Shown: positions 1 to 60,330 of the stretch, in pieces
Layout: the number at the start of each line of letters is the position of its first letter
Position numbering within the stretch: the first letter of the stretch is position 1
Assembly: GCA_029237695.1 (NCBI GenBank)
Contig: CM055272.1
Span: forward strand, 16,108,042 to 16,172,041
DNA length: 64,000 nt
Direction of reading: 5' to 3'
DNA from: Conchocele bisecta
Taxonomy: Eukaryota > Mollusca > Bivalvia > Lucinida > Thyasiridae
The notes under the pieces: generated by a model
The model's database searches: none
What the model saw: only the letters and a program-made list of their open reading frames with translations
Told to the model about the DNA's origin: nothing
Made by a program: the position numbers and the translations under genes

Positions 1-668
1 ATTAGCTGAGGGTGGGGTGGTACTTTGGGATGGTCCATATCCCCCCTCAAAACTTGCATCCATAAATACAAATCAGATGAAAGATACGTAATACAGAGTT
101 GGGGGGGGGGACTTTGGGCCGGCCCATAATCCTCCCCACTCTCTCAATTCGTCAACATGCACACACATCAGCGGCAAGGTAATTATTAGGTGGTGGGGGG
201 GGGGAGGACTTTGAACAATAATTCAATAATCCACCCCACCCCTCTGAACTCGTCACCATAAATACAAATCAGATGCAAGATAAGTAGTGGGGGGGGGAGT
301 TAGTTTGGGGCCGGCCCATACTCCCCCCTCAACTCGTCAACATGCACACAAATCAGCTGCAAGTATTAGGTGAGGGTGGGGGGGGGCTTTGGGATGGTCC
401 ATACCCCCCCCTCAAAACTTGTAACCGGCCCATAATTCCCCCGCCCCCTCTCTCAATTCGTCAACATGCACACACATCAGCGGCAATATAATTATTAAGT
501 GGGTAGGGGGAGGACTAATAATACAAAAATCTCCCCCCCTCCCCCCCCCCATCTGAACTCGTAACCATAAATACAATAATAAGTAGTACGGAGGGGGGGG
601 GGGACCCGGGGGGGGGGGGCTTTGGGCCGGCCCATAATGCCCCCCGCCCCCCCCCCTCTGAACTATAA

Positions 669-672
<4 letters not shown>
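1..672. repeat. G-run/C-run tandem repeat, block A
   Basis: Degenerate tandem units in which a long G run is followed by ACTTTGGGCCGGCCCATA, a C run, and a short AT-rich link resembling CTCGTCAACATGCACACA. GGCCGGCC-type palindromic cores recur. No coding potential is credible: the open frames here are proline/glycine runs. The same repeat recurs at 4689-5106, where it abuts the end of the first minisatellite, so it marks the left edge of both duplicated blocks. Opposed G and C runs could form hairpins or quadruplexes; that is inference. Confidence 0.8.

Positions 673-716
<44 letters not shown>
673..716. repeat. (TA)n microsatellite
   Basis: About 44 bases of nearly perfect TA dinucleotides directly after the G/C-run repeat. 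A shorter interrupted (TA)n sits at the homologous place in block B (5107-5142). Confidence 0.95.
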
Positions 717-720
<4 letters not shown>

Positions 721-1112
721 TATTTTTATTTAATTTTCGACCACTTGGTCTTTATCAAAATAGTGTGAAAATGTTTTGGCAGCCCTACATGACGTCCATA
801 GTCCAGCAGTAAACCGAATGTTATGAGCCGGACGTCATGATGTAGCGCGAACCCAGGCCATACGTCAAATCACGAAACCACGATACACCACTTGTGCATC
901 ATCATCTCGCGATCCGACGCACAGTCCACGCCCGTACGACGTCAAATCCATCCCATGACACCCGATACCAGTAACAGAAAACAGAAACAAAAGTTAGGTG
1001 GGGGGGATTTCAGACTGGTGGGGGGAGGGGAAGTTGACTGGTTGAATGTACCCGGGGGGGAGTTAATGCCGGCCCAAAGTCCCCCCGGGGGAATTTTAAG
1101 GCTAGCCCAAAC
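717..1112. repeat. Duplicated spacer, copy 1
   Basis: Non-repetitive-looking spacer beginning at TTTTCGACCACTTGGTC, with a GACGTCATGATGTAGCGCG stretch, ending in a G-rich part that leads into the CCG palindrome. It is nearly identical to 5143-5546. No gene recognised; the open frame through it ends in Arg/His-rich translation of the CCG run. Confidence 0.75.
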
Positions 1113-1487
1113 CCGCCGCCGCCACCGCCGCCACCGCCGCCACCGCCACCGTCGCCGCCGCCGCCAAAGGAAAAGGTATGCCTATGTCCCGTTTCTGCTA
1201 AAGCAGGCGGGACAAAAACCATGGGCAGTTGCGTTTACTGTGTTTTGAAAAACATGTGGTCTCTTTTATTACAAATATGTTTTCTGTTTAAAGTGTGTGG
1301 AGTCCGAAGAACTGCACATAAACATAAAAGAGACCACATGTTTTTCATAAACACAGTAAACGCAACTGCCCATGGTTTTTGTCCTGCCTGCTTTAGCAGA
1401 AACGGGACATAGGCATGCCTTTTCCTTTGGCGGCGGCGGCGGCGGTGACGGCGGCGGCGGCGGTGGCGGCGGCGGCGGCGGCGACGG
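1113..1487. mobile_element. Foldback palindrome with CCG/CGG triplet ends, complete copy
   Basis: Two ~155-base arms (about 1113-1268 and 1325-1487) are reverse complements around a ~57-base loop. The outer part of each arm is an interrupted triplet run, CCG on the left and CGG on the right. The inner part shares AAAGGAAAAGG, a GGGACATAGGC piece, CCATGGGCAGTTGCG and ACATGTGGTCTCTT. The right arm alone recurs at 5560-5760 and 7397-7592. A diverged whole hairpin of the same family, without triplets, lies at 61936-62052, which suggests a mobile foldback/MITE-like family. Open frames here encode alanine, proline or arginine runs and are not genes. Confidence 0.8.
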
Positions 1488-3255
1488 CAGCAACATTTCA
1501 CGTTAAGTTTTTGCGTTTAGCTCAGTTTCCAGAAAACTATAAGTCCTACGACCTCCATACTTGGCATACATCAACACTGTGGTGTAACCATCTGCACAGA
1601 GGGAGCCCATGTGACATTGACCTAGTTGTCATGGTTCAATAATTTACTTTTCACATGCATTCGACGTTATGTTTTTGCGTTTAGCTCTGTTTCTAAAACT
1701 TAACGCCCAGGTTAATTCATTGTAACTTCTGTTTCCCTCAATGAAATGATTTAATATTCCATACATGCATTTGTAACAACATCCGCATGATTATACCGAA
1801 AACCCATGGTACCCGCTAACCCAAGGTCAATGTCACGTGCTTAGAAAAATGCTCAGTTTTGAAAACTTAATGCTTGGGCTAATTTATTGTAACTGTTTCC
1901 CTTGATGGAATTTTTAATATTTTTCATTCATTCATGCATTTGTAAGAACATTCCGCATCATCTGCAGAAAGTTCATGGTTTCCAGTAACCCCAAGGTCAA
2001 GATCATGGACTTCAAAAATGTCTAGTATAGAAATTTAGCATCGGTGCCAGGAGATACATGTCGTTGGCGGCATTATTGTTTGTGTTTAGCTGTGTTTGTT
2101 GGAAAATAAGTGTTTTGGTTTCAGTTTATTATCACCTCGCGTAGCGAAAATGGGATATAGGGATGCAAAAGTCTGTTCGTCCGTCTGTCCGTCACACAAA
2201 TGAACATTGGGGTTAATCTGCAATAACTTCCGTTTCCATTGATGGAATGCTTTCATATTTCATAGGTGCATTTGTAACATCATCCTGCATCATTCTACAG
2301 AAAGTATATGGTGCCCGCTAACCACAAGGTAAAGAAAGGACGTAGACCATTTTACACTTCATTAATCTTTCCCTCAATGGAATGCTTTAATATTTCATAG
2401 GTGTATTTTTAAGAACATTTCTCATCATTCTACAGAAAGCCCATGGTGCTCACTAACCCCAAGGTTCTAACCCCAAGGTTATTACAAGCTCCGTATGTAC
2501 TATCAATCTGCGCCAGGCGGGACATCTTGCTCCGCGCAACTCTTGTATTACTTATATTTACATTGCATTTTCGGATAGCTTAGTGTAAACGTTATTTTTT
2601 CGCAATTCATAGAACACAAGGTGTATGATCACGTGGTTTCCAAACCCGATTTTCCGACGTGACGTAATCTGTGACGTCATTTTTACAGTATATTTTCATT
2701 AAAATCTTCCTAACAAACGGACTTATTTTGATGATATGTAGCGCACCAAATACGATCGCATATGTGTTTTATGGGTGCTCTGAAAGTTATTTACAGTAAC
2801 TTATAAATTTCACAAAGAATCGATTATCGAGTACCGTTTATTTCTTACATTCACGTACTTTAGTTTTTATTTACATTTACGGCAACCGATTCTTCGTCAA
2901 AACGACATAATTATGAGATTAAAGCCGCATATACAATAAAGGGCAACATGTATCGCATTTGCTGCGGTATATTTCATAAAAATATGTCATTCCATTTAGC
3001 AAGATATTAAAGAAATCACTGCAAACACATCTAAAAAAAACATGACGTCATGACGTTCGGAAACCACGTGATCCCCACCTTGGAACAGCGATGTTGTCGG
3101 TCAATAGTGTTACATTATAGACAACGTCATGTATATTCATCATGTGAAACAAACTTTAACGAATCAACATTTATGGACAGTGTAAACACATTGGTGTACA
3201 TGGTGCAATGTATACATACTCGATATATCGGCATTGTCAATTTGGAGCACATTCC
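1488..3255. repeat. 1.8-1.9 kb duplicated unit, copy 1
   Basis: Starts at CAACATTTCACGTTAAG after the CGG run and ends at the minisatellite. It contains several ~150-200-base degenerate repeats of the type 'taacttctgtttcc..tgatggaatg..aaccccaaggtc', an ATCACCTCGCGTAGCG element followed by GTCC-type repeats, a GCCAGGCGGGACATCTTG element, and the inverted-repeat element at 2628-3073. It is nearly identical to 5761-7348 and 7593-9359. No protein-coding gene is supported. Confidence 0.85.
2628..3073. mobile_element. TIR element with GATCACGTGGTTTCC ends, copy 1
   Basis: Begins GATCACGTGGTTTCC and ends with the reverse complement GGAAACCACGTGATC; the inner termini also carry GACGTCA motifs in opposite orientation. 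About 446 bases, with no transposase frame, so a non-autonomous MITE-like element. Copies lie at 6908-7348 (right terminus cut) and 8731-9175, each inside a duplicated unit. Confidence 0.75.
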
Positions 3256-4688
3256 GTCTGTTGTAGCGTTATAATAATCAATAATAATCAATCCAACCAG
3301 CATTGTGTCTGTTGTAGCGTTATAAAGGTTGGTGTAGAGTCAATCCAACCAGCATTGTGTCCCAATCCAACCAGCATTCTCTCTGTTGTAGCGTTATAAA
3401 GGTCGGTGTAGACTCGATCCAACCAGCATTGCGTTTGTTGTAGCATTATAAAGGTTGGTATAGAGTCAATCCAACCAGCATTGTGTCCCAATCCAACCAG
3501 CATTCTCTCTGTTGTAGCATTATAAAAGTCAGTGTAGACTCAATCCAACGAGCATTGTGTCTGTTGTATCGTTATAAAGATTGGTGTAGACTCAATCCAA
3601 CCAGCATTGCGTTTGTTGTAGCGTTATAAAGGTTGGTGTAGACTCAATACAACAAGCATTGTGTCCCAATCCAACCAACATTCTCTCTGTTGTAGCAATA
3701 TAAAAGTCAGTGTAGACTCAATCCAACCAGCATTGTGTCTGTTGTAGCGTTATAAAGGTTGGTGTAGACTCAATGCAACCAGTATTGTGTCTGTTGTAGT
3801 GTAATAAAGGTCAGTGTAGACTCAATCCAACCAGCATTGTGTCCATTGTAGCATTATATAGGTTGGTGTAGACTCAATCCAACCAGCATTGTGTACCAAT
3901 CCAACCAGCATTGTGTCCGTTGTAGCATTATAAAGGTCGGTGTGGACTCAATCCAACCAGAGTTGTGTCCCAATCCAACCAGCATTGTGTCCATTGTGGC
4001 ATTATAAAGGTCGGTGTAGACTCAATCCAAGCAGCATTGTGTCCCAATCCAACCAGCAGTGTGTCCATTCTAGCATTATAAAGGTCGGTGTAGACTGAAT
4101 CCAACCAGCATTGTGTCCCAATCCAACCAGCATTGTGTCTGTTGTAGCGTTATAAAGGTTGGTGTAGAGTCAATCCAACCAGCATTGTGTCCCAATCCAA
4201 CCAGCATTCTCTCTGTTGTAGCGTTATAAAGGTCGGTGTAGACTCGATCTAACCAGCATTGCGTTTGTTGTAACATTATAAATGTTGGTATAGACTCAAT
4301 CCAACCAGCATTGTGTCCCAATCCAACCAGCATTCTCTCTGTTGTAGCATTAAAGTTCAGTGTAAAAGATCAATCCAACCAGCATTGTGTCTGTTGTTGC
4401 GTTATGAGGTTGGGTGTAGACTCAATCCAACCCGTATGTCTGTTGTAGTTGTAATAAAGTCGTGTAGACTCAATCCAACCAGCTTGTGTCCATGTAGCTT
4501 ATATAGGTTGGTGTAGACTCAATCCAACCAGTATTGTGTCTGTTGTAGTGTAATAAAGGTCAGTGTAGACTCAATCCAACCAGCATTGTGTCCATTGTAG
4601 CATTATATAGGTTGGTGTAGACTCAATCCAACCAGCATTGTGTACCAATCCAACCAGCATTGTGTCCGTTGTAGCATTATAAAGGGGG
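3256..4688. repeat. ~55-bp minisatellite carrying EXD2 exon-junction sequence, block A
   Basis: Tandem units of roughly 55 bases: CAATCCAACCAGCATTGTGT, then (C)TGTTGTAG, then CRTTATAAAGGTYGGTGTA, then GACT. Some units have an extra ~22-base 'cccaatccaaccagcattgtgt' insertion. By length there are about 25 units. The TGTTGTAG..TTATAAAGGTCGGTGTA part matches the acceptor and first bases of the EXD2 exon at 11165. Here the array is not followed by an exon; it breaks off in a TATAAAGG and runs into the G-run repeat of block B. Confidence 0.9.
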
Positions 4689-5106
4689 GTGAGTTAGTTT
4701 GGGCCGGCCCATACTCCCCCCTCAACTCGTCAACATGCACACAAATCAGCTGCGAGTATTAGGTGAGGGTGGGGGGGGGGGGCTTTGGGATGGTCCATAC
4801 CCCCCCCCCCCCAAAACTTGTAACCATAAATACAAACCAGATGCAAGATAAGTAATACCGGGTGGATGGGGGGCTTTGGGCCGGCCCATAATCCCCCCCC
4901 TCTCTCAATTCGTCAACATGCACACACATCAGCGGCAATATAATTATTAAGTGGGTAGGGGGAGGACTAATAATACAAAAATCCCCCCTACCCCCCCCCA
5001 TTTGAACTCGTAACCATAAATACAATAATAAGTAGTACAAGGGGGGGGGACTTTGGGGCCGGCCCCCCATAATGCCCCCCCCCCCCCCCCCATCAACTGA
5101 ACTAAA
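4689..5106. repeat. G-run/C-run tandem repeat, block B
   Basis: Same repeat family as 1-672, joined directly to the truncated end of the block A minisatellite. Contains ACTTTGGGGCCGGCC cores and long G and C homopolymers. Confidence 0.8.
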
Positions 5107-5142
5107 ATATATATATATATATAATATATATATATATATATA
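5107..5142. repeat. (TA)n microsatellite
   Basis: TA dinucleotides interrupted by one AA step, homologous in position to 673-716. Confidence 0.9.
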
Positions 5143-5546
5143 CACTCTTTTTATTTAATTTTCGACCACATGGTCTTTATCAAAATAGTGTGAAAATGTT
5201 TTGGCAGCCCTACATGACGTCCATAGTCCAGCAGTAAACGGATGTTATGAGCCGGACGTCATGATGTAGCGCGAACCCAGGCCATACGTCAAATCACGAA
5301 ACCACGATACACACTTGTGCATCATCATCTCGCGATCCGACGCACAGTCCACGCCCGTACGACGTCAAATCCATCGCATGACACCCGATACCAGTAACAG
5401 AAAACAGAAACAAAAATTAGGTGGGGGGGGATTTCAGACTGGTGGGGGGGGGGGGAAGTTGACGGTGTTGAATGTACCCGGGGGGTGGGGGGGGGGGGAG
5501 TTCATGCCGGCCCAAAGTCCCCCCGGGGGAATTTTAAGGCTAGCCC
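5143..5546. repeat. Duplicated spacer, copy 2
   Basis: Near-identical copy of 717-1112, with longer G runs around 5420-5500. It ends at a short CCGCCG remnant (about 5550-5558), where the left arm of the triplet palindrome has been lost. Confidence 0.75.
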
Positions 5547-5714
5547 AAACCCGCCGCCGGTGTGTGGAGTCCGAAGAACTGCACATAAACATAAAAGAGA
5601 CCACATGTTTTTCATAAACACAGTAAACGCAACTGCCCATGGTTTTTGTCCCGCCTGCTTTAGCAGATACGGGACATAGGCATACCTTTTCCTTTGGCGG
5701 CGGCGGCGGCGGTG

Positions 5715-5762
<48 letters not shown>

Positions 5763-7348
5763 ACATTTCACGTTAAGTTTTTGCGTTTAGCTCAGTTTCC
5801 AGAAAACTATAAGTCCTACGACCTCCATACTTGGCATACATCAACACTGTGGTGTAACCATCTCGCACAGAGGGAGCCCATGTGACATTGACCTAGTTTT
5901 CATGGTTCAATAATTTACTTTTCACATGCATTCGACGTTATGTTTTTGCGTTTTAGCTCTGTTTCTAAAACTTAACGCCCATGGTTAATTCATTGTAACT
6001 TCTGTTTTCCTCAATGAAATGATTTAATATTCCTTACATGCATTTGTAAACAACATCCCACATGATTATACCGAAAACCCATGGTACCCGCTAACCCCAA
6101 GGTCAATGTCACGTGCTTAGAAAATGCTCAGTTTTGAAAACTTAATGCTTGGGCTAATTTATTGTAACTGTTTCCCTTGATGGAATGTTTTAATATTTCA
6201 TTCATTCATGCATTTGTAAGAACATTCCGCATCATCTGCAGAAAGTTCATGGTTTCAGTAACCCCAAGGTCAAGATCATGGACTTCAAAAATGTTCTAGT
6301 ATAGAAATTTAGCATCGGTGCCAGGAGATACATGTCGTTGGCGGCATTATTGTTTGTGTTTAGCTGTGTTTGTTGGAAAATAAGTGTTTTGGTTTCAGTT
6401 ATATCACCTCGCGTAGCGAAAATGGGATATAGGGATGCAAAAGTCTGTTCGTCCGTCTGTCCGTCACACAAAATGAACTTATTGGGGTTAATCTGCAATA
6501 ACTTCTGTTTCCATTGATGGAATGCTTTCATATTTCATAGGTGCATTTGTAACATCATCCTGCATCATTCTACAGAAATATATGGTGCGCCGCTAACCAC
6601 AAGGTAAAGAAAGGACTTAGACCATTTTACACTCTTCATTAATCTTTCCTCATGGAATGCTTTAATATTTCATAGGTGTATTTTTAAGAACATTTCTCAT
6701 TCATTCTACAGAAAGCCCATGGTGCTCACTAACCCCAAGGTTCTAACCCCAAGGTTATTACAAGCTCCGTATGTACTATCAATCTGCGCCAGGCGGGACA
6801 TCTTGCCCTCCGCGCAGCTCTTGTATTACTTATATTTACATTGCTTTTAGGATAGCTTATGTGTAAACGTTATTATTTTTTCGCAATTCATAGAACACAA
6901 GGTGTATGATCACGTGGTTTCCGAACCCGATTTTCCGACGTGACGTAATCTGTGACGTCATTTTTACAGTATATTTTCATTAAAATCTTCCTAACAAACG
7001 GACTTATTTTGATGATATGTAGCGCACCAAATACGATCGCATATGTGTTTTATGGGTGCTCTGAAAGTTATTTACAGTAACTTATAAATTTCACAAAGAA
7101 TCGATTATCGAGTACCGTTTATTTCTTACATTCACGTACTTTAGTTTTTATTTACATTTACGGCAACCGATTCTTCGTCAAAACGACATAATTATGAGAT
7201 TAAAGCCGCATATACAATAAAGGGCAACATGTATCGCATTTGCTGCGGTATATTTCATAAAAATATGTCATTCCATTAGCAAGATATTAAAGGAAATCTA
7301 CTGTAAACACATCTAAAAAAAACATGACGTCATGACGTTCGGAAACCA
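5547..7348. repeat. Palindrome right arm plus 1.8-1.9 kb unit, copy 2 (truncated)
   Basis: After the CCGCCG remnant the sequence jumps to GTGTGTGGAGTCCGAAG, the loop side of the palindrome, then the right arm with a long uninterrupted CGG run (about 5696-5758), then the unit. The unit matches copy 1 until 7348, where identity stops inside the right terminus of the GATCACGTGG element. A segment equivalent to the left arm is missing compared with 1113-1268. Confidence 0.8.
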
Positions 7349-7410
7349 AGTTCTTCGGACTCGACACACTTTAAACAGAACAAATATGTTTTCTGTTTAA
7401 AGTGTGTGGA
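7349..7410. repeat. Hairpin at the junction of two duplicated units
   Basis: AGTTCTTCGGACTC..ACACACTTTAAACAGAA is followed, after a short loop, by its reverse complement TTCTGTTTAAAGTGTGTGG..GTCCGAAGAACT. This restores a palindrome centre from sequence that occurs as a single arm in copy 1 (about 1286-1314) and lies exactly where the upstream TIR element is cut. Confidence 0.8.
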
Positions 7411-9359
7411 GTCCGAAGAACTGCACATAAACATAAAAGAGACCACATGTTTTTCATAAACACAGTAAACGCAACTGCCCATGGTTTTTGTCCCGCCTGC
7501 TTTAGCAGAAACGGGACATAGGCATACCTTTTCCTTTGGCGGCGGCGGCGGCGGTGACGGCGGCGGCGGCGGTGGCGGCGGCGGCGGCGGCAGCAACATT
7601 TCACGTTAAGTTTTTGCGTTTAGCTCAGTTTCCAGAAAACTATAAGTCCTACGACCTCCATACTTGGCATACATCAACACTGTGGTGTAACCATCTCGCA
7701 CAGAGGGAGCCCATGTGACATTGACCTAGTTTTCATGGTTCAATAATTTACTTTTCACATGCATTCGACGTTATGTTTTTGCGTTTAGCTCTGTTTCTAA
7801 AACTTAACGCCCAGGTTAATTCATTGTAACTTCTGTTTCCCTCAATGAAATGATTTAATATTCCATACATGCATTTGTAACAACATCCCGCATGATTATA
7901 CCGAAAACCCATGGTACCCGCTAACCCCAAGGTCAATGTCACGTGCTTAGAAAATGCTCAGTTTTGAAAACTTAATGCTTGGGCTAATTTATTGTAACTG
8001 TTTCCCTTGATGGAATGTTTTAATATTTCATTCATTCATGCATTTGTAAGAACATTCCGCATCATCTGCAGAAAGTTCATGGTTTCCAGTAACCCCAAGG
8101 TCAAGATCATGGACTTCAAAAATGTCTAGTATAGAAATTTAGCATCGGTGCCAGGAGATATATGTCGTTGGCGGCATTATTGTTTGTGTTTAGCTGTGTT
8201 TGTTGGAAAATAAGTGTTTTGGTTTCAGTTTATTATCACCTCGCGTAGCGAAAATGGGATATAGGGATGCAAAAGTCTGTTCGTCCGTCTGTCCGTCACA
8301 CAAATGAACATTGGGGTTAATCTGCAATAACTTCTGTTTCCATTGATGGAATGCTTTCATATTTCATAGGTGCATTTGTAACATCATCCTGCATCATTCT
8401 ACAGAAAGTATATGGTGCCCGCTAACCACAAGGTAAAGAAAGGACTTAGACCATTTTACACTTCATTAATCTTTCCCTCAATGGAATGCTTTAATATTTC
8501 ATAGGTGTATTTTTAAGAACATTTCTCATCATTCTACAGAAAGCCCATGGTGCTCACTAACCCCAAGGTTCTAACCCCAAGGTTATTACAAGCTCCGTAT
8601 GTACTATCAATCTGCGCCAGGCGGGACATCTTGCTCCGCGCAGCTCTTGTATTACTTATATTTACATTGCATTTTCGGATAGCTTAGTGTAAACGTTATT
8701 TTTTCGCAATTCATAGAACACAAGGTGTATGATCACGTGGTTTCCGAACCCGATTTTCCGACGTGACGTAATCTGTGACGTCATTTTTACAGTATATTTT
8801 CATTAAATCTCCTAACAAACGGACTTATTTTGATGATATGTAGCGCACAATACGATCGCCATATGTGTTTTATGGGTGCTCTGAAAGTTATTTACAGTAA
8901 CTTATAAATTTCACAAAGAATCGATTATCGAGTACCGTTTATTTCTTACATTCACGTACTTTAGTTTTTATTTACATTTACGGCAACCGATTCTTCGTCA
9001 AAACGACATAATTATGAGATTAAAGCCGCATATACAATAAAGGGCAACATGTATCGCATTTGCTGCGGTATATTTCATAAAAATATGTCATTCCATTAGC
9101 AAGATATTAAAGGAAATCTACTGTAAACACATCTAAAAGAAACATGACGTCATGACGTTCGGAAACCACGTGATCCCCCACCTTGGAACAGCGATGTTGT
9201 CGGTCAATAGTGTTACATTATAGACAACGTCATGTATATTCATCATGTGAAACAAACTTTAACGAATCAACATTTATGGACAGTGTAAACACATTGGTGT
9301 ACATGGTGCAATGTATACATACTCGATATATCGGCATTGTCAATTTGGAGCACATTCCG
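7411..9359. repeat. Palindrome right arm plus 1.8-1.9 kb unit, copy 3
   Basis: Contains the right arm with its CGG run (about 7538-7592) and the full unit, near-identical to copies 1 and 2, and continues into the second minisatellite. No gene recognised. Confidence 0.85.
8731..9175. mobile_element. TIR element with GATCACGTGGTTTCC ends, copy 3
   Basis: Intact terminal inverted repeats, as in 2628-3073; about 445 bases and no coding frame. Confidence 0.75.
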
Positions 9360-11164
9360 TCTGTTGTAGCGTTATAATAATCAATAATAATCAATCCAAC
9401 CAGCATTGTGTCCCAATCCAACCAGCATTGTGTCTGTTGTAGCGTTATAAAGGTTGGTGTAGAGTCAATCCAACCAGCATTGTGTCCCAATCCAACCAGC
9501 ATTCTCTCTGTTGTAGCGTTATAAAGGTCGGTGTAGACTCGATCCAACCAGCATTGCGTTTGTTGTAGCATTATACAGGTTGGTATAGACTCAATCCAAC
9601 CAGCATTGTGTCCCAATACAACCAGCATTCTCTCTGTTGTAGCATTATAAACGTCAGTGTAGACTCAATCCAACCAGCATTGTGTCTGTTGTATCGTTAT
9701 AAAGGCTGGTGTAGACTCAATCCAACCAGCATTGCGTTTGTTGTAGCGTTATAAAGGTTGGTGTAGACTCAATACAACAAGCATTGTGTCCCAATCCAAC
9801 CAACATTCTCTCTGTTGTAGCAATATAAAAGTCAGTGTAGACTCAATCCAACCAGCATTGTGTCTGTTGTAGCGTTATAAAGGTTGGTGTAGACTCAATG
9901 CAACCAGTATTGTGTCTGTTGTAGTGTAATAAAGGTCAGTGTAGACTCAATCCAACCAGCATTGTGTCCATTGTAGCATTATATAGGTTGGTGTAGACTC
10001 AATGCAACCAGTATTGTGTCTGTTGTAGTGTAATAAAGGTCAGTGTAGACTCAATCCACCAGCATTGTGTCCATTGTTAGCATTATATAGGTTGGTGTAG
10101 ACTCAATCCAACCAGCATTGTGTACCAATCCAACCAGCATTGTGTCCGTTGTAGCATTATAAAGGTCGGTGTGGACTCAATCCAACCAGAGTTGTGTCCC
10201 AATCCAACCAGCATTGTGTATGTTGTAGCGTTATAAAGGTTGGTGTATAGTCAATCCAACCAACCGCATTGTGTCCCAATCCAACCAGCATTCTCTCTGA
10301 TGTAGCGTTATAAAGGTCGGTGTAGACTCTATCTAACCAGCATTGCGTTTGTTGTAGCATTATAAATGTTGGTATAGACTCAATCCAACCAGCATTGTGT
10401 CCCAATCCAACCAGCATTCTCTCTGTTGTAGCATTATAAAAGTCAGTTGTAGACTCAATCCAACAGCTTATGTCTGTTGTAGCGTTATAAAGGTTGGTGT
10501 AAACTCAATCCAACCAGTATTGTGTCTGTTGTAGTGTAATAAATGTCAGTGTAGACTCAATCCAACCAGCATTGTGTCCATTGTAGCATTATATAGGTTG
10601 GTGTAGACTCAATCCAACCAGTATTGTGTCTGTTGTAGTGTAATAAAGGTCAGTGTAGACTCAATCCAACCAGCATTGTGTCCATTGTAGCATTATATAG
10701 GTTGGTGTAGACTCAATCCAACCAGCATTGTGTACCAATCCAACCAGCATTGTGTCCGTTGTAGCATTATAAAGGTCGATGTGGACTCAATCCAACCAGA
10801 GTTGTGTCCCAATCCAACCAGCATTGTGTCCATTGTGGCATTATAAAGGTCGGTGTAGACTCAATCCAAGCAGCATTGTGTCCCAATCCAACCAGCATTG
10901 TGTCCATTGTGGCATTATAAAGGTCGGTGTAGACTCAATCCAAGCAGCATTGTGTCCATTGTGGCATTATAAAGGTCGGTGTAGACTCAATCCAAGCAGC
11001 ATTGTGTCCCAATCCAACCAGCATTGTGTCCATTGTGGCATTATAAAGGTCGGTGTAAACTCAATCCAAGCAGCATTGTGTCCCAATACAACCAGCATTG
11101 TGTCCGTTGTAGCAGTATAAAGGTCGGTGTGGACTCAATCCAACCAGCATTCTGTCTGTTGTAG
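9360..11164 (+). repeat. ~55-bp minisatellite fused to an EXD2 exon boundary
   Basis: Same unit as 3256-4688, roughly 30 units by length, with the extra 22-base 'cccaatccaaccagcattgtgt' segment in many. Each unit holds TTGTAG followed by CRTTATAAAGGTYGGTGTA. The last unit reads CTGTTGTAG and then GATTATAAAGGTCGGTGTA, continuing into TCTGCCAAGGACGATGG, the coding sequence of the EXD2 exon at 11165. The array therefore ends at a functional-looking 3' splice site whose sequence is the repeated motif. On the minus strand it gives a repetitive open frame of no significance. Confidence 0.9.
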
Positions 11165-11287
11165 GATTATAAAGGTCGGTGTATCTGCCAAGGACGATGG
11201 GAAGAAGTTATTCACAGATTACGGGATGCCCTTGTGTGGTTGCGTCGACCTGTGCCATGTCCTGGCCCGTGTACGCGGATATAACTG
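11165..11287 (+). CDS. EXD2: EXD2 internal exon: exonuclease domain, Exo II region
   Basis: EXD2 is a 3'-5' exonuclease-domain protein linked in vertebrates to DNA end resection and mitochondrial function. The exon follows TTGTAG and starts with one base of a split codon, then I-I-K-V-G-V, then an S-A-K-D-D-G-K-K-L run. This aligns with the vertebrate EXD2 'K-V-G-V-G-x-x-x-D' block that contains an acidic residue of the DEDD core, and is followed by T-D-Y-G and G-C-V-D-L. It ends in R-G-Y-N plus two bases (TG) before GTATGG. The donor phase (2 bases) fits the acceptor phase of the next exon at 12378. The N-terminal exons, with the first acidic motif, would lie upstream of the window. The exon's first ~18 bases are the repeated core of the adjoining minisatellite. 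Family assignment rests on the ordered match of this and the following three exons. Confidence 0.75.
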
Positions 11288-11336
11288 GTATGGACCATAG
11301 TATCACACTATTCGGGACCGCCTATCGAATTACATG

Positions 11337-11491
11337 TACAGTCGAACCTGTGCTAAAGGCCACTTACGATAGCAATTACCTGTCTGTAGCAGCCACACAT
11401 TTGTTCTCCAAATTATTCAATTACTACATAAATGAACCTGTGAACAAAGGCCATACTAGCATTTTTTTCTTTATTCACAGGTTTGACTGTA
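11337..11491. mobile_element. Short TA-flanked MITE in an EXD2 intron
   Basis: CAGTCGAACCTGTG at the left and CACAGGTTTGACTG at the right are near-perfect inverted termini. TA lies immediately outside each end, as expected for a Tc1/mariner/pogo-type target site. About 150 bases between the TAs and no coding capacity. A single similar terminus (CAGTCGAACGCCTGT) is seen near 56296. Confidence 0.7.
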
Positions 11492-12377: not shown

Positions 12378-12489
12378 CCCGAATCAGGGATTACATGGCT
12401 TGGCCTCGGGAATTCTGGGTGTTGCCATGGTGAAGGACGTACACATACGGTGTGGAGACTGGGAGGCGGACACATTGTCTGACGACCAG
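12378..12489 (+). CDS. EXD2: EXD2 internal exon: between Exo II and Exo III
   Basis: Bounded by a TTCAG acceptor and a CAG/GTGATT donor. The first base completes the codon begun by TG at 11287 (giving Cys). Reading continues P-N-Q-G-L-H-G-L-A, then G-D-W-E-A-D-T-L-S-D-D-Q and ends on a complete codon. The pattern C-x-D/N-W-x-x-x-x-L-x-x-D-Q is the characteristic run of WRN/EXD2-type exonucleases just before the Exo III tyrosine motif. The alternative of a separate 60-residue open frame starting at 12316 is rejected because its first part is repeat-derived. Confidence 0.75.
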
Positions 12490-13039: not shown

Positions 13040-13672
13040 TTAGTAACAGTATGGAGCAAATTTAATGATATTGTCCTTCCAGACTTTGTTCAGTCTGTTC
13101 TTGAACTGGTTTATTGATTCCGCGGTTACTACATTTTCAGGCAAGTTGTTCCAGTCATTTACTATTCGTTGGCTGAAATAACGTTTTCTTATGTTTAGAC
13201 GAAATTGTCTCTTGTATATTTTTTGCTGATGCCCCCTTGTTCTTGAATGCATAATTGGAATATTTTTGTCTTTATCTATATGCTCGATGTTGTTGATTAT
13301 TTTGTAAACTTGTATCATGTCGGCTCTTACTCTTCGGTATTGGAGTGATGGTAGACCTGGTTCCATTATTCTTTCACTATACGGTTTTTGGCTGATTGAT
13401 TTCACAATTGTGGTGGCTCTTCTTTGGACATTTTCGATTGCGATACATTTTCTTCTGTAGACGACAGGCCATGCTTGCGATCCGTATTCTAGATGTGGTC
13501 TCACTAATGATTTGTAGAGTTGAAGGAACCTAGTTTTGTCCATACATGTATATGAACACAATCGTTGGATAATTCCTAGTACTTTGTTCGCTTTTTTGAC
13601 ACTGGTATTTATTTGTTGTGTAAATTTCAGCTGATTCTCAATAACTACTCCAAGATCTTTTTCCTCCGTCAC
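13040..13672 (-). pseudogene. LINE ORF2 C-terminal fragment
   Basis: 210 residues open. It begins within the E-K-D-L-G-V-V-I block that follows the RT thumb. Key runs are L-V-R-P-H-L-E-Y-G, V-Q-R-R-A-T, L-P-S-L-Q-Y-R-R and W-N-N-L-P. These are typical of the post-RT region of CR1/Jockey-like elements. It is the longest intact piece of the LINE; the frame upstream (13673-14050) is broken by indels at an A-rich tract on the coding strand. Ends at a natural stop, so the C-terminus is complete. Confidence 0.85.
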
Positions 13673-14055
13673 CTCACTTAGTGCTACTTTTTTTTATCTT
13701 TTTTTTATCTTAATCGCTATCGTTCATTGACTATGGAAGGTGTTAATAGTGTCTGCCTATGTGCCTTACTTTGCATTTGGAAGAGTTAACACGTAGTTGC
13801 CATTTTTCTGACCAATCACTCAGTTTATCTAGATCATTTTGTAGACTAATCTTGTTATCGGTATCGTTTGAGACAGTGTATATACAAATGACGTTTTTTA
13901 CTACGTCCGGGAGATCATTGATGTATGGAATAGTACTGGTCCTAGTACACTGCCTTGTGGAATACCACTTTCCACTCTTTGCATCCTATTCTTCAGAAAC
14001 ATTTATATCCACTTTACAACCGTTCCCTCAATTGTGTATCCTTTTAATTTGGTTA

Positions 14056-14355
14056 TTAATCTACGGTGTGGAACTGTACCAAATGCTTTTTAAAGTCCAA
14101 AAAGATTACATCTATACTTTCTGATTGATCAAGCGTTTCCGTCCAATCATCAAGAACTTCGATTAGTTGTGTGATACAGGAATAGCCCTTTCGAAATCCG
14201 TGTTGATGTTTGGTGAAGAGGTTATTTGACTCCATATGTTCTATTATTTGCAAATTACTGATGTTAAGCTTATCGGCTTGTAATTTTCTGCTTTTTTTCT
14301 TGCTACCTTGTTTGTGGATGGCCGAGATGTTTGCTTTTCTCCAGTCATTCGGCAT
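14056..14355 (-). pseudogene. LINE reverse transcriptase fragment
   Basis: 99 residues. It starts M-P-x-D-W-R-K-A-N-I (the W-R-x-A-x-I/V motif at the start of the RT fingers), lacks a clean Y-R-P-I-S motif, then has Q-H-G-F-R-K-G-Y-S-C and V-I-F-L-D-F-K-K, where the first catalytic Asp lies in F-L-D-F. The frame is lost in the following A-F-D motif region at about 14090. Confidence 0.85.
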
Positions 14356-15048
14356 TGTTCCTTCATATAGTGATTTTCTAAACGGTTCTGTCAGAGGTTC
14401 TGTTATATTGTGTGCCGTTTTTTTCAGTATCTTCGGATGTAAGCCGTCAGGTCTTTGTGATTTCCCTGGCTTAAGATTATCTAGTGCTTTTTTGACTACT
14501 TCTTGGTTTATTGTTATATTATCTAGGGATCACCGCGTGATGTTTAGTTTCGAAGTTTGGTATATTTAATATTTTCGTCCGTGAACACACTTATAAAGAA
14601 CTTGTTCAATATGTTCGCTTTTTCTAAGGTGCCTGCCGTCGGTATACCATTTTCGTCTTTTAGTTCGGTTATTGTTATTTTGGGTTTCGCACATATTTAC
14701 GGAATAATTTTGTATCGTCTTTGATATGTTCTGCTATGTTTTGCTCATATTTATACTTTTCCCCCTTAGTTTCTGTGGTTGCTGTGTTCCTCACGGCTAT
14801 ATATAGGTTATGGTTTCTTTCAGTTCTACAGTGCATATATTTCTTCCACATTGTTCTTTTGTGTTTCATTACTGTTTATCCAGGGTAGACGTGGTCGATT
14901 GCATGGGTCTGCCTTGCTCACTGGTATATACTTGTCAATTAATTTATTTAATATATCGGCAAAGCAGTCCCATATTTCGTCGGTATTTTTCCCTTGAAGC
15001 CTAGTCTCACAGGTTATCATTTCTAATGTGTTATTGATAGAAATATAA

Positions 15049-15360
15049 TCAGCTTTGAAGTATCTGTGATGTCGGTTCGATTAGAGTGTAACATGCGAAA
15101 TTGAATTGCAAAACCAGATGGTCACTTTTCTCTAGACCTGGTAGGTAACTTATAGTGTCGATCATATTTTCTTCGTTTGTGAAAAATAAGTCCAGAGTGT
15201 GAGGAGTTTCATTCCCCCTAAGTCTAGTAAAGTTGTGTACGTGTTGGTGGAGGTAATTATCTGTGATTTTTTCGAGAAATAATGTTGATGGGTGGTTTTC
15301 ATTGACGTTTGTAGTTTTTTTTAGTTCCAGTTGAACCTCTTTGTAGTTGAAATCTCCCAT
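15049..15360 (-). pseudogene. LINE apurinic-type endonuclease fragment
   Basis: 103 residues. Opens with the endonuclease motif M-G-D-F-N-Y, followed by L-D-L-F-F-T-N-E and G-L-E-K-S-D-H-L-V-L, where S-D-H is the conserved catalytic motif near the domain's end. The upstream frame with Y-T-D-I-Y-R-S-P-N-S (about 15440-15480) is in another phase, so the domain is frameshifted. Confidence 0.85.
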
Positions 15361-15722
15361 TATAAGAATATGTGATGGTTTTGCATGTTTGGTTCTTTTA
15401 GTAACCTATCTATATTTGCATATGCATCTATCTTACTGTTAGGGCTTCTGTAAATATCTGTGTATTCCGAAAGGAATGGGTTAATCTGTCTGTCCGAATA
15501 AAATTACCCCACCCACTTGAACCCACAGAGAAATGAATCTTTACAATGAGTATTGACTTGAACTTATGGACTTACTTTAGTAGCCCTGTGCACCAATGTC
15601 ACCCCTGTGCTCAAGGTCAAGTGTTATTGATTTCTTGTTCTGTGTGTTGTTATTGCCTCGCTTGAGTAGCTGGAGCGACTATACTCTCTGCTTTTCTATG
15701 ATGTCAACATTCGTCAGTTTTT

Positions 15723-19313: not shown

Positions 19314-19553
19314 ATTAACTATGCGACTGATGACGCATTAATCGCTATAGACATTCTCATGCAGCTGGTTGCCGTGAAAATATATGGCATTATATGGCAA
19401 CACTGTTACTATGGTAACACAGTTAGCACAGACGAGGCTTCATTCTGGCAGACTGCCAGATCTCTCTGTCAGGGTATCGTCGATGTCGCGTTCAATAATC
19501 CAAAGACAACATCTTCAAGGATGGATAATGAGGCTGGACAGAGAAGCATGTAG
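19314..19553 (+). CDS. EXD2: EXD2 internal exon: Exo III motif, ends in TAG
   Basis: Follows CCCTTTCAG. Reading in the phase set by the previous exon gives I-N-Y-A-T-D-D-A-L-I-A: the Y-x-x-x-D motif of the DEDDy exonuclease core (Exo III). It continues with F-W-Q-T-A-R-S-L-C-Q-G-I-V-D-V, which matches the W-x-x-x-x-x-x-C-Q-G-V-V-D run of vertebrate EXD2. The frame stays open to ..R-S-M followed by TAG, and TAG/GTATAT is the best donor. With that donor the phase (0) agrees with the acceptor at 20172, but the last codon is a stop. An ancestral CAG/GT changed by C-to-T is the simplest reading. A donor at 19550 (CAT/GTAGGT) would avoid the stop but breaks the phase to the next visible exon. Confidence 0.75.
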   Translation: MNYATDDALIAIDILMQLVAVKIYGIIWQHCYYGNTVSTDEASFWQTARSLCQGIVDVAFNNPKTTSSRMDNEAGQRSM

Positions 19554-20171: not shown

Positions 20172-20323
20172 GGCTCAGAATTGGAGACGGGCTACAAGGT
20201 CGGCAAACACAAAGACTCATACAAGGCGTACATGACATGGAAGCGCCCCCTATACTACAACTGTAAGCTGATCGCACCAGATGGCACGCCCCTCACTACG
20301 TGTGACATACGCAAGGTGGAATG
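20172..20323 (+). CDS. EXD2: EXD2 internal exon: post-exonuclease region
   Basis: Starts after CACACAG in phase 0. Reads G-S-E-L-E-T-G-Y-K-V-G-K-H-K, then R-P-L-Y-Y-N-C-K-L-I-A-P-D-G, T-C-D-I-R-K-V-E-W-Y. This matches the vertebrate EXD2 segment S-P-L-Y-D-N-C-x-L-x-A-P-D-G-x-P-L-x-T-C-D-x-R-K that follows the exonuclease domain. The end is uncertain: a donor at 20324 (TG/GTACAG) would split the W codon. Immediately after comes an AACAG-type pentamer run that is the 3' tail of an antisense LINE. The later EXD2 exons (with the C-x-x-C region of the C-terminal part) were looked for by eye downstream and not found. Confidence 0.75.
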
Positions 20324-20325
20324 GT

Positions 20326-21980
20326 ACAGAACAGAACAGAACAGAACAGAACATATCCTTTATTTGGCAATGATCTCAGACCACTTAGTGGTATATGAGT
20401 GCACACATGTACAAGCATAATTTATTATGAACAACAACAACAGCATGGCGAGAGTTATGTGGAAGTACTGTACTCGGTCTAATTTATCAGCGAACTTGTT
20501 TGCAGTCAAATTTAGTTAAATAGTCAACATCTATATATTTTGCAATGATTCGGCTTGATGGTATTTATCAGTAGCGAGTATTGACTGGGAGAAATTCATC
20601 AAGTATTATATGTAAAGGAACGTGGTCAGTAAGCTTGGATCCGAATCAGAACAATTTGTTTTAAACATAGTTTGACAATAATTCCAATTCTTAGAAACTC
20701 ATCTACGAGTTTATAGGAGTTAGATTTGGTAAAATTTAATGCTACGTCAAACATTTTACAATTAAATATACAAGCATATAGAAAAACGGGTTGCAAGTAT
20801 ATTCGATTGCAAAAAAGACCCGCACATCCTGTGTGTCATCAGTCTCCAGGAATATGGAGAACGAGACAGGGCATGTCAGGATGAATACACGGTGAATTGT
20901 AGTGGGACACACTCTCATCAGATAGCGAAAATCGAAAGTTGGTGAGAGTATGTATGCCACTTAATACTAAGTTATTATACAGTTTCTCGTAAGTTAGACA
21001 TCGTAGTATGGGTGTGCCTGTATTGGTTGGTATCGGACCGCACGCACAACGACAACTCATATAGTTTGTGTATGCTTGGCACCCTCCAATAGCATGCATA
21101 TCGTGTCGTTATTTACCATGCAAATATCATATCAATCCTTCATGAATATTGATAGGTGTGAACAATGTACATCTTGATTTACTAGTATGTGACTGAACAA
21201 CAGTATGTTGTGTTTTACTCATAATTGTCAGTAGTATAATATCTACAATTAGTGTAGCCCCGGATGAGATTGCTCAAAGTAAGCCATCCCAACAGGATCT
21301 GCACCACTTGTGAATGACTCTGTGAGTATGATTACTATTGAACTATAATACAAAAGTCATAAATAACAAAATTATGAACATGTGAATTACTTTATAATCT
21401 AGGAGGTACATTTAATTTAATCAATATTGTTATTGGAAAAAACGCATAATCTCAGCAATAAAGATGCTCAACCGTCGTAACTGTATTTCTGACTTGCAAT
21501 TGAGAAGTTCTTTGAATTTTATAACATTTGGATACCGATAATAGTAACGTTTGAGATACAATTTTCGTTTATCCGAGAAATGTGGGACAGACTAGCAGAT
21601 AATGAAATTCGTCACCCAAATCATTTTTATTACATATGGTACACTTACGTTCAGAATGGGGTATCCCTAACCATCTACCTGTCTCAATTGGGAGTTTATG
21701 ATTACCTGTTCTAAATCTTACAAGATTATAGTACAATGATTGTGGTAAACATGTGAAGTATCCTTCTATATTTGTGTTATCTTTAAATAAATATACATCT
21801 TACCTTTGTTAGATTCCGAGACACGTGAATGCCAGTTTTGGATAAATTGATCCATTAGAGTACGTTTAATTTTATTTTTACTTAGTTCCTGCATATTATA
21901 GTCTAGATTATTCCCCGTTTCATTTACTATATGTTTTATGAACTGCAACCATTTAAAATTAGTGTTTTCAAGGTTCATCG
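20326..21980 (-). mobile_element. LINE 3' fragment ending in (TGTTC)n beside an EXD2 exon
   Basis: On the minus strand, 21978-21766 and the following ~250 bases read F-R-T-G-N-H-K-L-P-I-E-T-G-R-W and then C-T-I-C..D-E-F-H-Y-L-L-V-C, a C-x2-C-x-H-x-C knuckle typical of LINE C-termini. The frame then has stops. A long noncoding 3' region follows and ends in CAAATAAAGGATATGTTC with a TGTTC pentamer tail at 20326-20353. The 20440-21500 part is assigned to this element by continuity only and may include other insertions. LINE clade not assigned. Confidence 0.6.
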
Positions 21981-56975: not shown

Positions 56976-59900
56976 AAACCCCGCTAAGCGACCCCCACTC
57001 AGTTACATGCGTTGCCAGCTCCGTGAATCCCCACCTCCGGCTTCGTGAACCCCACTATGTGACCCCCACTCAGTTACATGAGTTTTCAGCATCCATGAAT
57101 CCAACCTGCAGCTTCGTGAACCCCGCTACGTGACCCCAACTCAGCTACATAAGTGAAAATGATCTCCGTGAATTCTCCTCTCCACCTTCATGAACACCGC
57201 TATTTGAACCCACTCAGCTACGTGAGTTCTCAGCTCCGTGAAATTCCACCTTATGCGTTGCCGGCTCCGTGAATCCCCACCTCCGGCTTCGTGAACCCCG
57301 CTATGTGACCCCCACTCATTTACACGAGTTTTCAGCTCCGTGAATTCCCCCCTGCAGCCTCGTGAACCCCGCTATGTGACCCCCACTCAGCTACGTGAGT
57401 TCTCAGCTCCGTGAATTACCCCTGCAGCTTCGTGAACCCCGTTATGTGACCCCACTCAGCTACGTGAGTTCTCAGCTCCGTGAATTCCCCCTCCAGCTTC
57501 GTGAACCCCACTAGATGACCCCATGCAGCTACATGAGTTCACAGCTCTGTGAATTCCCACTTCCAGCTTCGTGAAACCCGCTATGTGACCGCCACTCAGT
57601 TACATGGGTTTTCAGCTCCGTGAATTCCCCCCTGCAGCTCCGTGAACCCCGCTATGTGACCCCCACTCAGCTACATGCGTTGCCAGCTCAGCTACATGAG
57701 TGAAAATGAGCTCCGTGAATTCCCCTCTCCACCTTCGTGAACCCCGCTATGTGACCCCACTCAGCTACATGTCTTCTCAGCTCCGTGAATTCCCCCTGCA
57801 GCTTCGTGAACCTCGATATGTGACCCCACTCAGCTACATGTGTTCTCAGCTCCGTGAATTCCCACCTCCAACTTCGTGAACCCCGCTATGTGACCCCACT
57901 CAGCTACATACGTTCTCAGCTCCGTGAATTTCCCCCTCCAACTTCGTGAACCCCGTTATGTGACCCCACTCAGCTACATGAGTTCCCAGCTCCGTGAATA
58001 CCCACCTCCAACTTCGAGAACCCCACTAGGTGACCCCATTCAGCTACATGTGTTCTCCCAGCTCTGTAAATTCCCACTTCCAGCTTCGTGAACCCCGCTA
58101 TGTGACCCCACAAAGCTACGTGAGTTCTCAGCTCCGTTAGCTCCCACCTCCAACTTCGTGAACCCCGTTATGTGACCCCACTCAGCTACATGAGTTCCCA
58201 GCTCCGTGAATACCCACCTCCAGTTTCGAGAACCCCACTAGGTGACCCCATTCAGCTACATGAGTTCTCCCAGCTCTGTGAATTCCCACTTCCAGCTTCG
58301 TGAACCCAGCTATGTGACCGCCACTCTGCTACATGAGTTCCAGCTCCGTGAATTCCTCCCTCCAGCTTCATGAACCCCGCTATGTGACCCCCACTCAGCT
58401 ACATGATTTCCCAGCTCCGTGAATCCCCACCTCCAAATTCGTGAACCCCGCTATATGATCCCCACTCAGTTACATGTGTTCTCAGCTCCGTGAATTCCCA
58501 CCTCTAGGTTCGTGAATCCCGCTATGTGACCCTGCACTCAGCTACATGAGGTTTCAGCTCCGTGAATTCCCACCTACAGCTTCGTGAATCCCACTGTATG
58601 ACATCCATTCAGCTACATGAGTTCCCAGCTCCGTGAATCCCCACCTCCAGCTTCGTCAATCCCGCTAGGTGACGCTCACTCAGCTACACGAGTTCCCAGC
58701 TCCGTGAATTCCCACCTCCAGCTTCGTAAACCCCACTATATGATCGCCACTCAGCTACATGAGTTCCAGCTCCGTTAATCCCCACCTCCAGTTTCGTGAA
58801 CCCCGCTATATGATCCCCACTTAGGTACATGAGTTCTCATCTCCTTGAAGTGAATCCCCACCTCCAGCTTCGTGAATTCCGCTATGTGACCCCCACTGAG
58901 CTACACGAGTTTACAGCTGTTCTGTGAATTCCCCCTTCCAGCTTCGTGAACCCCGCTATGTAACCCCCACTCAGCTACATGAGTTCTCAGCTCCGTGAAT
59001 TCCCCCCTCCAGCTTCGTGAACCCTGCTATGTAACCCCAACTCAGCTACATGAGTTCCAGCTCCGTTAATCCACACTTCCAGCTTCGTGAAGCTCGCTAT
59101 CTGTTCCCCACTCAGATACATGAGTTCCCAGCGCCGTGAATTCCCACCCCCAGCTTCGTGAACCCCGCTATGTGACGTCAATTCAGCTACATGAGTTCCA
59201 GCTCCGTGAATTCCCACCTCCAGCTTCGTGAAGCCCGCTATGTGTTCCCCACTCACCTACATGAGTTTCCAGCTCCGTGAATTCCCATCTCCAACTTCGT
59301 GAACCCCGCTATGTGACCTCCACATAGCTACATGAGTTCTCAGCTCCTTCAATTCCATCTAGCTTCGTGAACCCAGCTATGTGACTAAGCTATATGAGTT
59401 GTTAGCTCCGTGAATCCCCACATCCAGCTTCGTGAACCACGTTATGTGACCTCCACTAAGCTACGCGAGTTCTCAACTCCGTGAATCCCCACATCCAGCT
59501 TCGTGAACCACGTTATGTGGCCCTCACTCGCTACATGTGTTCCCAGCTCCGAGAATCCCCACCTCCAGCTTCGTGAACCCCGCTATGTGAACCCTACTAA
59601 GCTACGTGAGTTCTCAGCTCCGTGAATCCCCACATCCAGCTTCGTGAACCACGTTATGTGACCCCACTCCGCTACAATTGTTTCCAGCTCCGAGAAACCC
59701 CACCCCCAGCTTCGTGAACCCCGCTATGTTAACCCCACTCAGCTACATAAGTTCCCAGCTCCGTGAATTATCCCATCTCGTTTCATGAACACAGCTATGC
59801 GACCCGCACTCAGCTACATGAGTTCCAGCTGCGTAAATTCCCTCCTCCACCTTAGTGAACCCCGCTATGTGACCTCCAATCAGCTTCATAAGTTCCCAAC

Positions 59901-60330
59901 TCCGTGAATCCCCACCTCCAGCTTCGTGAACCCCGCTAGCTATGTGAATCCCACTCAGCTACATGAGGTCCGAGGTCCGTGAACTCCCACCTCCAGCTTA
60001 GTGGATCCCGCTATGTGACACCCACTCAGCTACATGAGTTCTCAGCTCCGTGAATTCCCCCCTGCAGCTTCGTGAACCTCGCTATGTGACCCTCATTCAG
60101 CTACACGAGTTCCCAGCTCCGTGAATCCCCACCTCAAACTTCGTGAACCCCGCTATGTGATCCTCACTCAGCTGCAGTAGTTCCCAAATCCGTGAATCCA
60201 TCTCCAGCTTCGTGAACCATGCCGTGTGACTCAGCTTAGTGAATTCCCAATTCCAGCTTCGTGAACCCCGTGATTCCAGCTCCGTGAATCCCCCTAGCCT
60301 TGAGAATCCCCAAACTCGGCTTCGAGAGTG
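56976..60330. repeat. ~71-bp minisatellite with internal subrepeats
   Basis: About 3.3 kb of tandem units: GCTCCGTGAATTCCCACCTC-CA, GCTTCGTGAACCCC, GCTATGTGACCCCCACTCA, GCTACATGAGTTCTCA. The four parts share GCTnnRTGA and CC, so the unit itself looks like four diverged ~18-bp repeats. Some units lack one part. No gene; minus-strand frames repeat V-H-E-A-G-G-G-N-S. Confidence 0.92.

Follow-up and report, generated by a model that had tools for sequence, protein, structure and literature searches.

Probable tandem amplification of a splice acceptor junction into a mirage-type minisatellite at EXD2 exon 3 of the bivalve Conchocele bisecta

A minisatellite of 30 units runs directly into exon 3 of an EXD2 copy in the thyasirid bivalve Conchocele bisecta. 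It is probably a mirage-type array, one in which the acceptor junction of the exon has been tandemly amplified while the copy next to the exon is still the one that is spliced. The array lies in a stretch of 64,000 nucleotides (the window: assembly GCA_029237695.1, contig CM055272.1, positions 16,108,042 to 16,172,041 of the forward strand; window coordinates are counted from its first letter). The best reading of its origin would be neutral: local tandem duplication appears to be tolerated at junctions, and the exon-proximal site is likely picked by exon definition. A tandem duplication across a junction would leave one intact junction beside the exon and, since it does so, may be as tolerable as a duplication within an intron; slippage or unequal exchange could later lengthen or shorten the resulting array.

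The junction array and its EXD2 copy

The array, its second copy and the EXD2 exons of the window are as follows (exon numbering is that of this analysis).

9353 to 11183, plus strand: mirage-type minisatellite whose 30 units each join the acceptor to the exon start; the final one is the true junction
11157 to 11164, plus strand: terminal TGTTGTAG acceptor adjoining the exon, splice-site position assigned by homology and frame
About 3250 to 4685, plus strand: second array copy inside a segmental duplication, 21 units, 17 with AG, cut off with no exon behind it
11165 to 11287, plus strand: EXD2 exon 3, 123 nt, beginning and ending in phase 2
12378 to 12489, plus strand: EXD2 exon 4, open
19314 to 19553, plus strand: EXD2 exon 5, with a terminal in-frame TAG at 19551 to 19553
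20172 to 20330, plus strand: EXD2 exon 6, with an ACAGA repeat disrupting its end

The units span the intron-exon boundary together with its splice signal: each carries an acceptor and 19 exon-like bases, and AG is kept in 25 of the 30. As the original prediction had it, the array leads straight into an EXD2 exon. The tandem array adjoins the exon at 11165, so that the final unit is the exon's own acceptor; the 41 residues of the exon match human EXD2 (PDB 6k17, E = 3.8e-5), their translation begins I-I-K-V-G-V as predicted, and a donor, GTATGG, follows at 11288. The units themselves are less regular than had been proposed. Rather than a period of about 55 bp, spacings of 52 or 74 bp account for 26 of 29, the 74-bp units holding an extra block of 22 bp. 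The motifs expected in every unit occur in only some of them: TGTTGTAG in 17/30, the exact exon-like 19-mer in 12/30 and both in 7/30, counting units called with at most 9 mismatches in a 27-base core, a threshold at which more decayed units may be missed. GTGG units close to the exon look like a single amplified variant.

The proposed make-up of the unit (about 30 bases of intron, the acceptor and about 18 bases of exon) is supported as to its junction origin and needs revision as to the share of intron. When the left edges of the arrays are compared with the unit, they suggest that the amplified segment was only about 17 bp of native intron and 19 bp of exon; the 16-bp GACTCAATCCAACCAG of the unit resembles a linker, and this division between linker and native intron is inferred from the same comparison.

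Judged from its sequence, the EXD2 copy in the window is a truncated, stop-bearing fragment of four exons. It was rejected as a working EXD2 gene on several grounds. Exon 5 ends in a stop codon where gene A, a second EXD2 copy described below, has GAG before the donor, and exon 6 is disrupted. Exon 3 reads DLCHV and is without an arginine that is invariant at that place in a 25-row alignment. Upstream of exon 3, no EXD2 exons were found in 31 kb (500 bases of which are N), and a genome search with alligator EXD2 gave no later exons near the window copy among the matches listed. Just 3' of exon 3, window positions 11323 to 11400 have matches on many contigs and represent a dispersed repeat.

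Junction arrays at other EXD2 copies and in a second gene family

Gene A is found on the same contig (C8), minus strand, at 28.29 to 28.23 Mb and 12 Mb from the window, with partial copies nearby. It is more complete than the window copy. The best named matches of its joined protein are in clams: Ruditapes at 53%, Mactra at 53% and Mya at 51%. It can be called complete-looking, short of proven: a stretch of about 40 residues, after exon 8 and ahead of the last exon, could not be located, and the match to the first exon is weak. A match on another contig, C1 (L031, 323 codons in one open frame), was considered as an EXD2 exon and rejected, as it resembles another exonuclease gene by sequence likeness only.

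Six EXD2 loci on C8 carry the exon 3 array, and its length varies among these paralogues from 5 to 45 units: the window has 30 and gene A 45, and the remaining four loci have 14, 15, 10 and 5. The exon start is deleted at the 5-unit locus. At the other five, which are all the arrays that have an exon, the array enters the exon in the same register. The left edges match at all six loci, with a small deletion at one, and the array is therefore older than the duplication of the EXD2 loci. AG is kept in 129 of 140 units when the six loci are taken together with the exon-less array of the window. The original prediction had named many copies of the array lying away from any exon as evidence against a junction origin. 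In a DNA search of the 1.89-Gb genome, which scored 40 out of 1166 first-look candidates, every listed match to the array part of the query fell on C8, at EXD2 copies or at the second, exon-less array of the window. Gene A's junction array is adjoined by a different minisatellite, of GTACAATGTTTACATAGTCAATATATTGGTATTGTCAAATTGG type (C8, about 28280930 to 28283000), and the window seems, by eye, to hold one related unit at about 9290 to 9350.

Gene A has two more amplified junctions besides that of exon 3, at exons 7 and 8, with splice sites assigned from homology and frame.

L034, 1690 to 3007: 19-bp acceptor array before exon 8 of gene A, 68.1 copies
L033, 1690 to 2184: 19-bp acceptor array before exon 8 of gene B, 26.1 copies
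L028, 1276 to 1590: 121-bp donor array after exon 7, 2.6 copies
L029, 661 to 1588: 121-bp donor array after exon 7, 7.6 copies

The exon 8 unit is of the type TTTCCACAG/GTATTTCCCA (the slash marks the splice point here and below), and the array enters an exon start that encodes the conserved YFP...KDH. A stricter match retained 50 junction cores in the exon 8 array of gene A, 34 of them with AG. Many cores read AG/GT, an acceptor and a donor at one point (24/50 in L034 and 13/25 in L033). The exon 7 unit contains the exon end together with its donor, AGGAA/GTAGGT. By sequence, then, EXD2 has three junctions with arrays made from their own junction, those of exons 3, 7 and 8.

Junctions of a second gene family, the chaperonin family (PF00118), were surveyed in the same genome. 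A search gave 56 matches, and the surroundings of 44 were examined. After reading, repeats that cross the junction were found at 9 of 88 junctions, the exon ends being the ends of profile matches and not mapped splice sites. Four of the 44 donors (L036, L037, L038 and L054) and five of the 44 acceptors (L036, L038, L039 twice and L044) are affected, so that together with the EXD2 exon 7 donor both 5' and 3' boundaries are represented in the genome. The L037 donor came from a tandem-repeat scan; the window-based test described below hides copies of short period. Two borderline acceptors, L040 and L056, with about 3 to 6 intronic bases in the copy, are outside the nine, as are L045 and L037 588 (the copy is exon sequence only or nearly so), L049 (a simple repeat), the L039 donor at 2683 (copy not read) and the L056 donor (intron only). 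In L038 (2095 to 2792), a 29-bp unit that matches the gene's own acceptor junction is repeated 25 times ahead of the acceptor. These repeats in genes other than EXD2 are spread over five contigs.

Duplication of junctions was compared with that of other sequence by taking a 90-bp window at each junction of the first 36 exon matches and looking for a same-strand copy within 450 bp. Junction windows were duplicated no more often than intron tiles (11/72 vs 58/392, p = 0.86). Exon middles were duplicated in 1/27, a difference from junctions that is not significant (p = 0.17), and shuffled junction windows from other genes had no local copies (0/360). Without the distance limit, copies were found for 3/36 donors, 9/36 acceptors, 87/321 intron tiles and 1/15 exon middles; the last 8 exon matches had 2/8 positive donors and 1/8 positive acceptors. 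For this one family and modest sample, duplication is roughly as frequent at junctions as in intron. With arrays at the exon 3, 7 and 8 junctions of EXD2 and a repeat at roughly one surveyed junction in ten, the data suggest that splice junctions are not shielded from tandem duplication in such genomes.

Splice-site choice among similar acceptors

If the exon 3 array is transcribed with its gene, the spliceosome would face many alternatives to the real acceptor: the window has 24 AG sites ahead of it and gene A has 43. With the reading phase taken from gene A exon 2, simple extension of the exon runs into a stop from every one of the 102 upstream AGs at the five exon-bearing loci. Use of an upstream acceptor would thus give a premature stop, and the RNA would be expected to be degraded. 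Before exon 8 the situation is slightly more permissive: of the 68 AGs within 1318 bp upstream, 5 allow an in-frame open extension. Many of the sites upstream of exon 3 nearly copy the real acceptor. Among gene A's 43, 24 differ from it at no more than 2 of 23 bases, and because of this closeness local sequence alone fails to explain which site is chosen. Identity over all 23 bases is seen at 0/24 sites in the window, 0/43 in gene A, and 1/13, 1/14 and 1/8 at the other three loci. A likely basis for the choice is exon definition. The introns are about 5 to 11 kb (about 10 kb before exon 3 and about 5 kb before exon 8), and where introns are long, exon definition is reported to favour the sites closest across the exon (PMC9225289, as far as its accessible text goes). 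In introns of this size exon definition would favour the nearest site across the exon, that is, the final unit.

The original prediction had pointed to cryptic acceptor use, exon extension with microexon-like inserts or slowed splicing. A stronger form of that idea is that the array is a functional brake on splicing, with decoy acceptors that compete with the real one, a premature stop from each use and an array length that tunes EXD2 output. The number of upstream sites, the stop that follows from every one of those tested and the exact 23-base twins of the real site at three loci would all suit such a device, as would the preference for upstream 3' sites that is often seen in human genes (the accessible part of PMC9225289 gives an overall preference for them that long introns lessen, which also speaks against choice of the innermost copy). 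Against a brake, the AG is kept no better than its neighbouring bases across 108 units (A at -2 in 102/108, G at -1 in 107/108); selection either for or against the decoy AG was set aside on this ground. Unit number ranges from 10 to 45 among the copies that retain the exon, similar repeats are no commoner or rarer at junctions than in plain intron, the window copy is a broken one, and RT-PCR in amphioxus is reported to show regular splicing (PMC3087553, accessible text). We consider a brake unlikely. Because the AG is unremarkable, the window copy is broken and amphioxus splicing is reportedly unaffected, the predicted effects on splicing are not favoured by this analysis of sequence.

A more general form of the neutral reading can be put forward as a speculation, and one that we hold to be a good deal less probable than the account of the exon 3 array itself. 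Mirages could be present genome-wide in this bivalve, with junctions duplicated as freely as intron, the innermost copy picked by exon definition, and array length setting both the loss of transcripts to decoys and the rate at which new introns arise. If so, the genome would be a natural library in which each exon faces its own splice site in anything from one to about 70 copies.

Origin of the unit and relation to known systems

Array lengths or copies could in part be products of assembly. The window contains a segmental duplicate of the array region (1271 to 4685 vs 7380 to 10775, 95.4%), runs of N lie beside the gene A array, and the C8 EXD2 loci are partial and rearranged. Set against this are the six loci whose arrays have diverged units and the five contigs on which genes other than EXD2 have junction repeats, and an assembly artefact is accordingly given little credence. 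The region upstream in the window (1 to 11183) is duplicated two to three times, in 1271 to 4685, 5560 to 7348 and 7380 to 10775 (95 to 97%), as either a real segmental duplication or uncollapsed haplotypes.

Origin from the exon's own acceptor and coding start has several lines of support. The 18 bases common to unit and exon encode I-I-K-V-G-V, and in 24 animal homologues the columns of I-[I/L]-K-V-G-V hold I in 20, I or L in 22, K in 24, V in 20, G in 24 and V in 23. An unrelated exon start in related species had been named as a finding that would count against the prediction; the homologues share the start (K and G in 24/24, the last V in 23/24, the first I in 20/24). The exonic part of the unit thus appears to come from the adjoining coding exon, whose residues are conserved and which the array enters in register at five loci. 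Exon 3 as the source of the unit is supported, because its start is conserved and the listed DNA matches lie at C8 EXD2 copies or at the second array. Chance likeness of unit and exon was set aside in view of the conserved EXD2 residues in the 24 homologues. An unrelated satellite, alike by chance or having overwritten the exon start, would account for the 16-bp part of the unit that has no match in the left flank and for the variants that exon and array have in common, as expected under conversion, yet it is highly improbable given that the 18 common bases encode conserved EXD2 residues, that the register is the same at every array with an exon and that the gene's other arrays are built from their own junctions.

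Judged by structure, the exon 3 array belongs to the kind of repeat named mirages in amphioxus, where they have been described in Adh3, in the globins BflGb6 and BflGb9, in TnC and in PGBD5 (PMC3087553; PMC3902484). In the accessible text of these reports, too, minisatellite-like copies span an exon-intron boundary, at the 5' or the 3' side, with splice signals in many units, and mirages are said not to interfere with regular splicing, as RT-PCR suggested. The differences are of host and scale: a bivalve in place of a cephalochordate, arrays that reach 45 and about 68 copies against the 3 to 6 given for BflGb6, and three junctions of one gene plus about one in ten junctions in a second family. 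The view that no minisatellite of this origin had been described may therefore hold for EXD2, but the kind is known from the amphioxus genes. Two other comparisons can be drawn. First, the Rogers model of intron gain by AG/GT-bearing tandem duplication (cited in the accessible part of PMC3087553) likewise adds splice signals beside an exon; its outcome is a novel spliced intron inside the former exon, whereas what is seen here is junction arrays. Second, a minisatellite in intron 3 of an abalone TSSK1-like gene (27-bp unit; PMC6905558) is likewise intronic, variable in copy number and from a mollusc; in the accessible text its unit is not tied to an exon boundary, whereas the EXD2 unit is built from a junction. 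No report of a mollusc mirage was recognised among the open-literature matches listed, judged by titles and abstract openings.

Junction minisatellites had thus been described in amphioxus in the literature searched, and the present ones are in a bivalve. What is new is the truncated state of the window copy, the 45-unit array of gene A and the arrays of 5 to 15 units at four other copies, two more EXD2 junction arrays and the junction repeats of the chaperonin family. Such arrays offer a test case for how the spliceosome chooses among tens of similar sites, and they are a possible origin of new introns. They also carry a warning for gene prediction, in which array units may be called as exons. 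The window contains two further features. A 71-bp tandem array of 35.5 copies occupies 57709 to 60218, with no gene linked to it, and on the minus strand at 13040 to 15405 there are open reading frames that resemble pieces of reverse transcriptase, recognised by eye.
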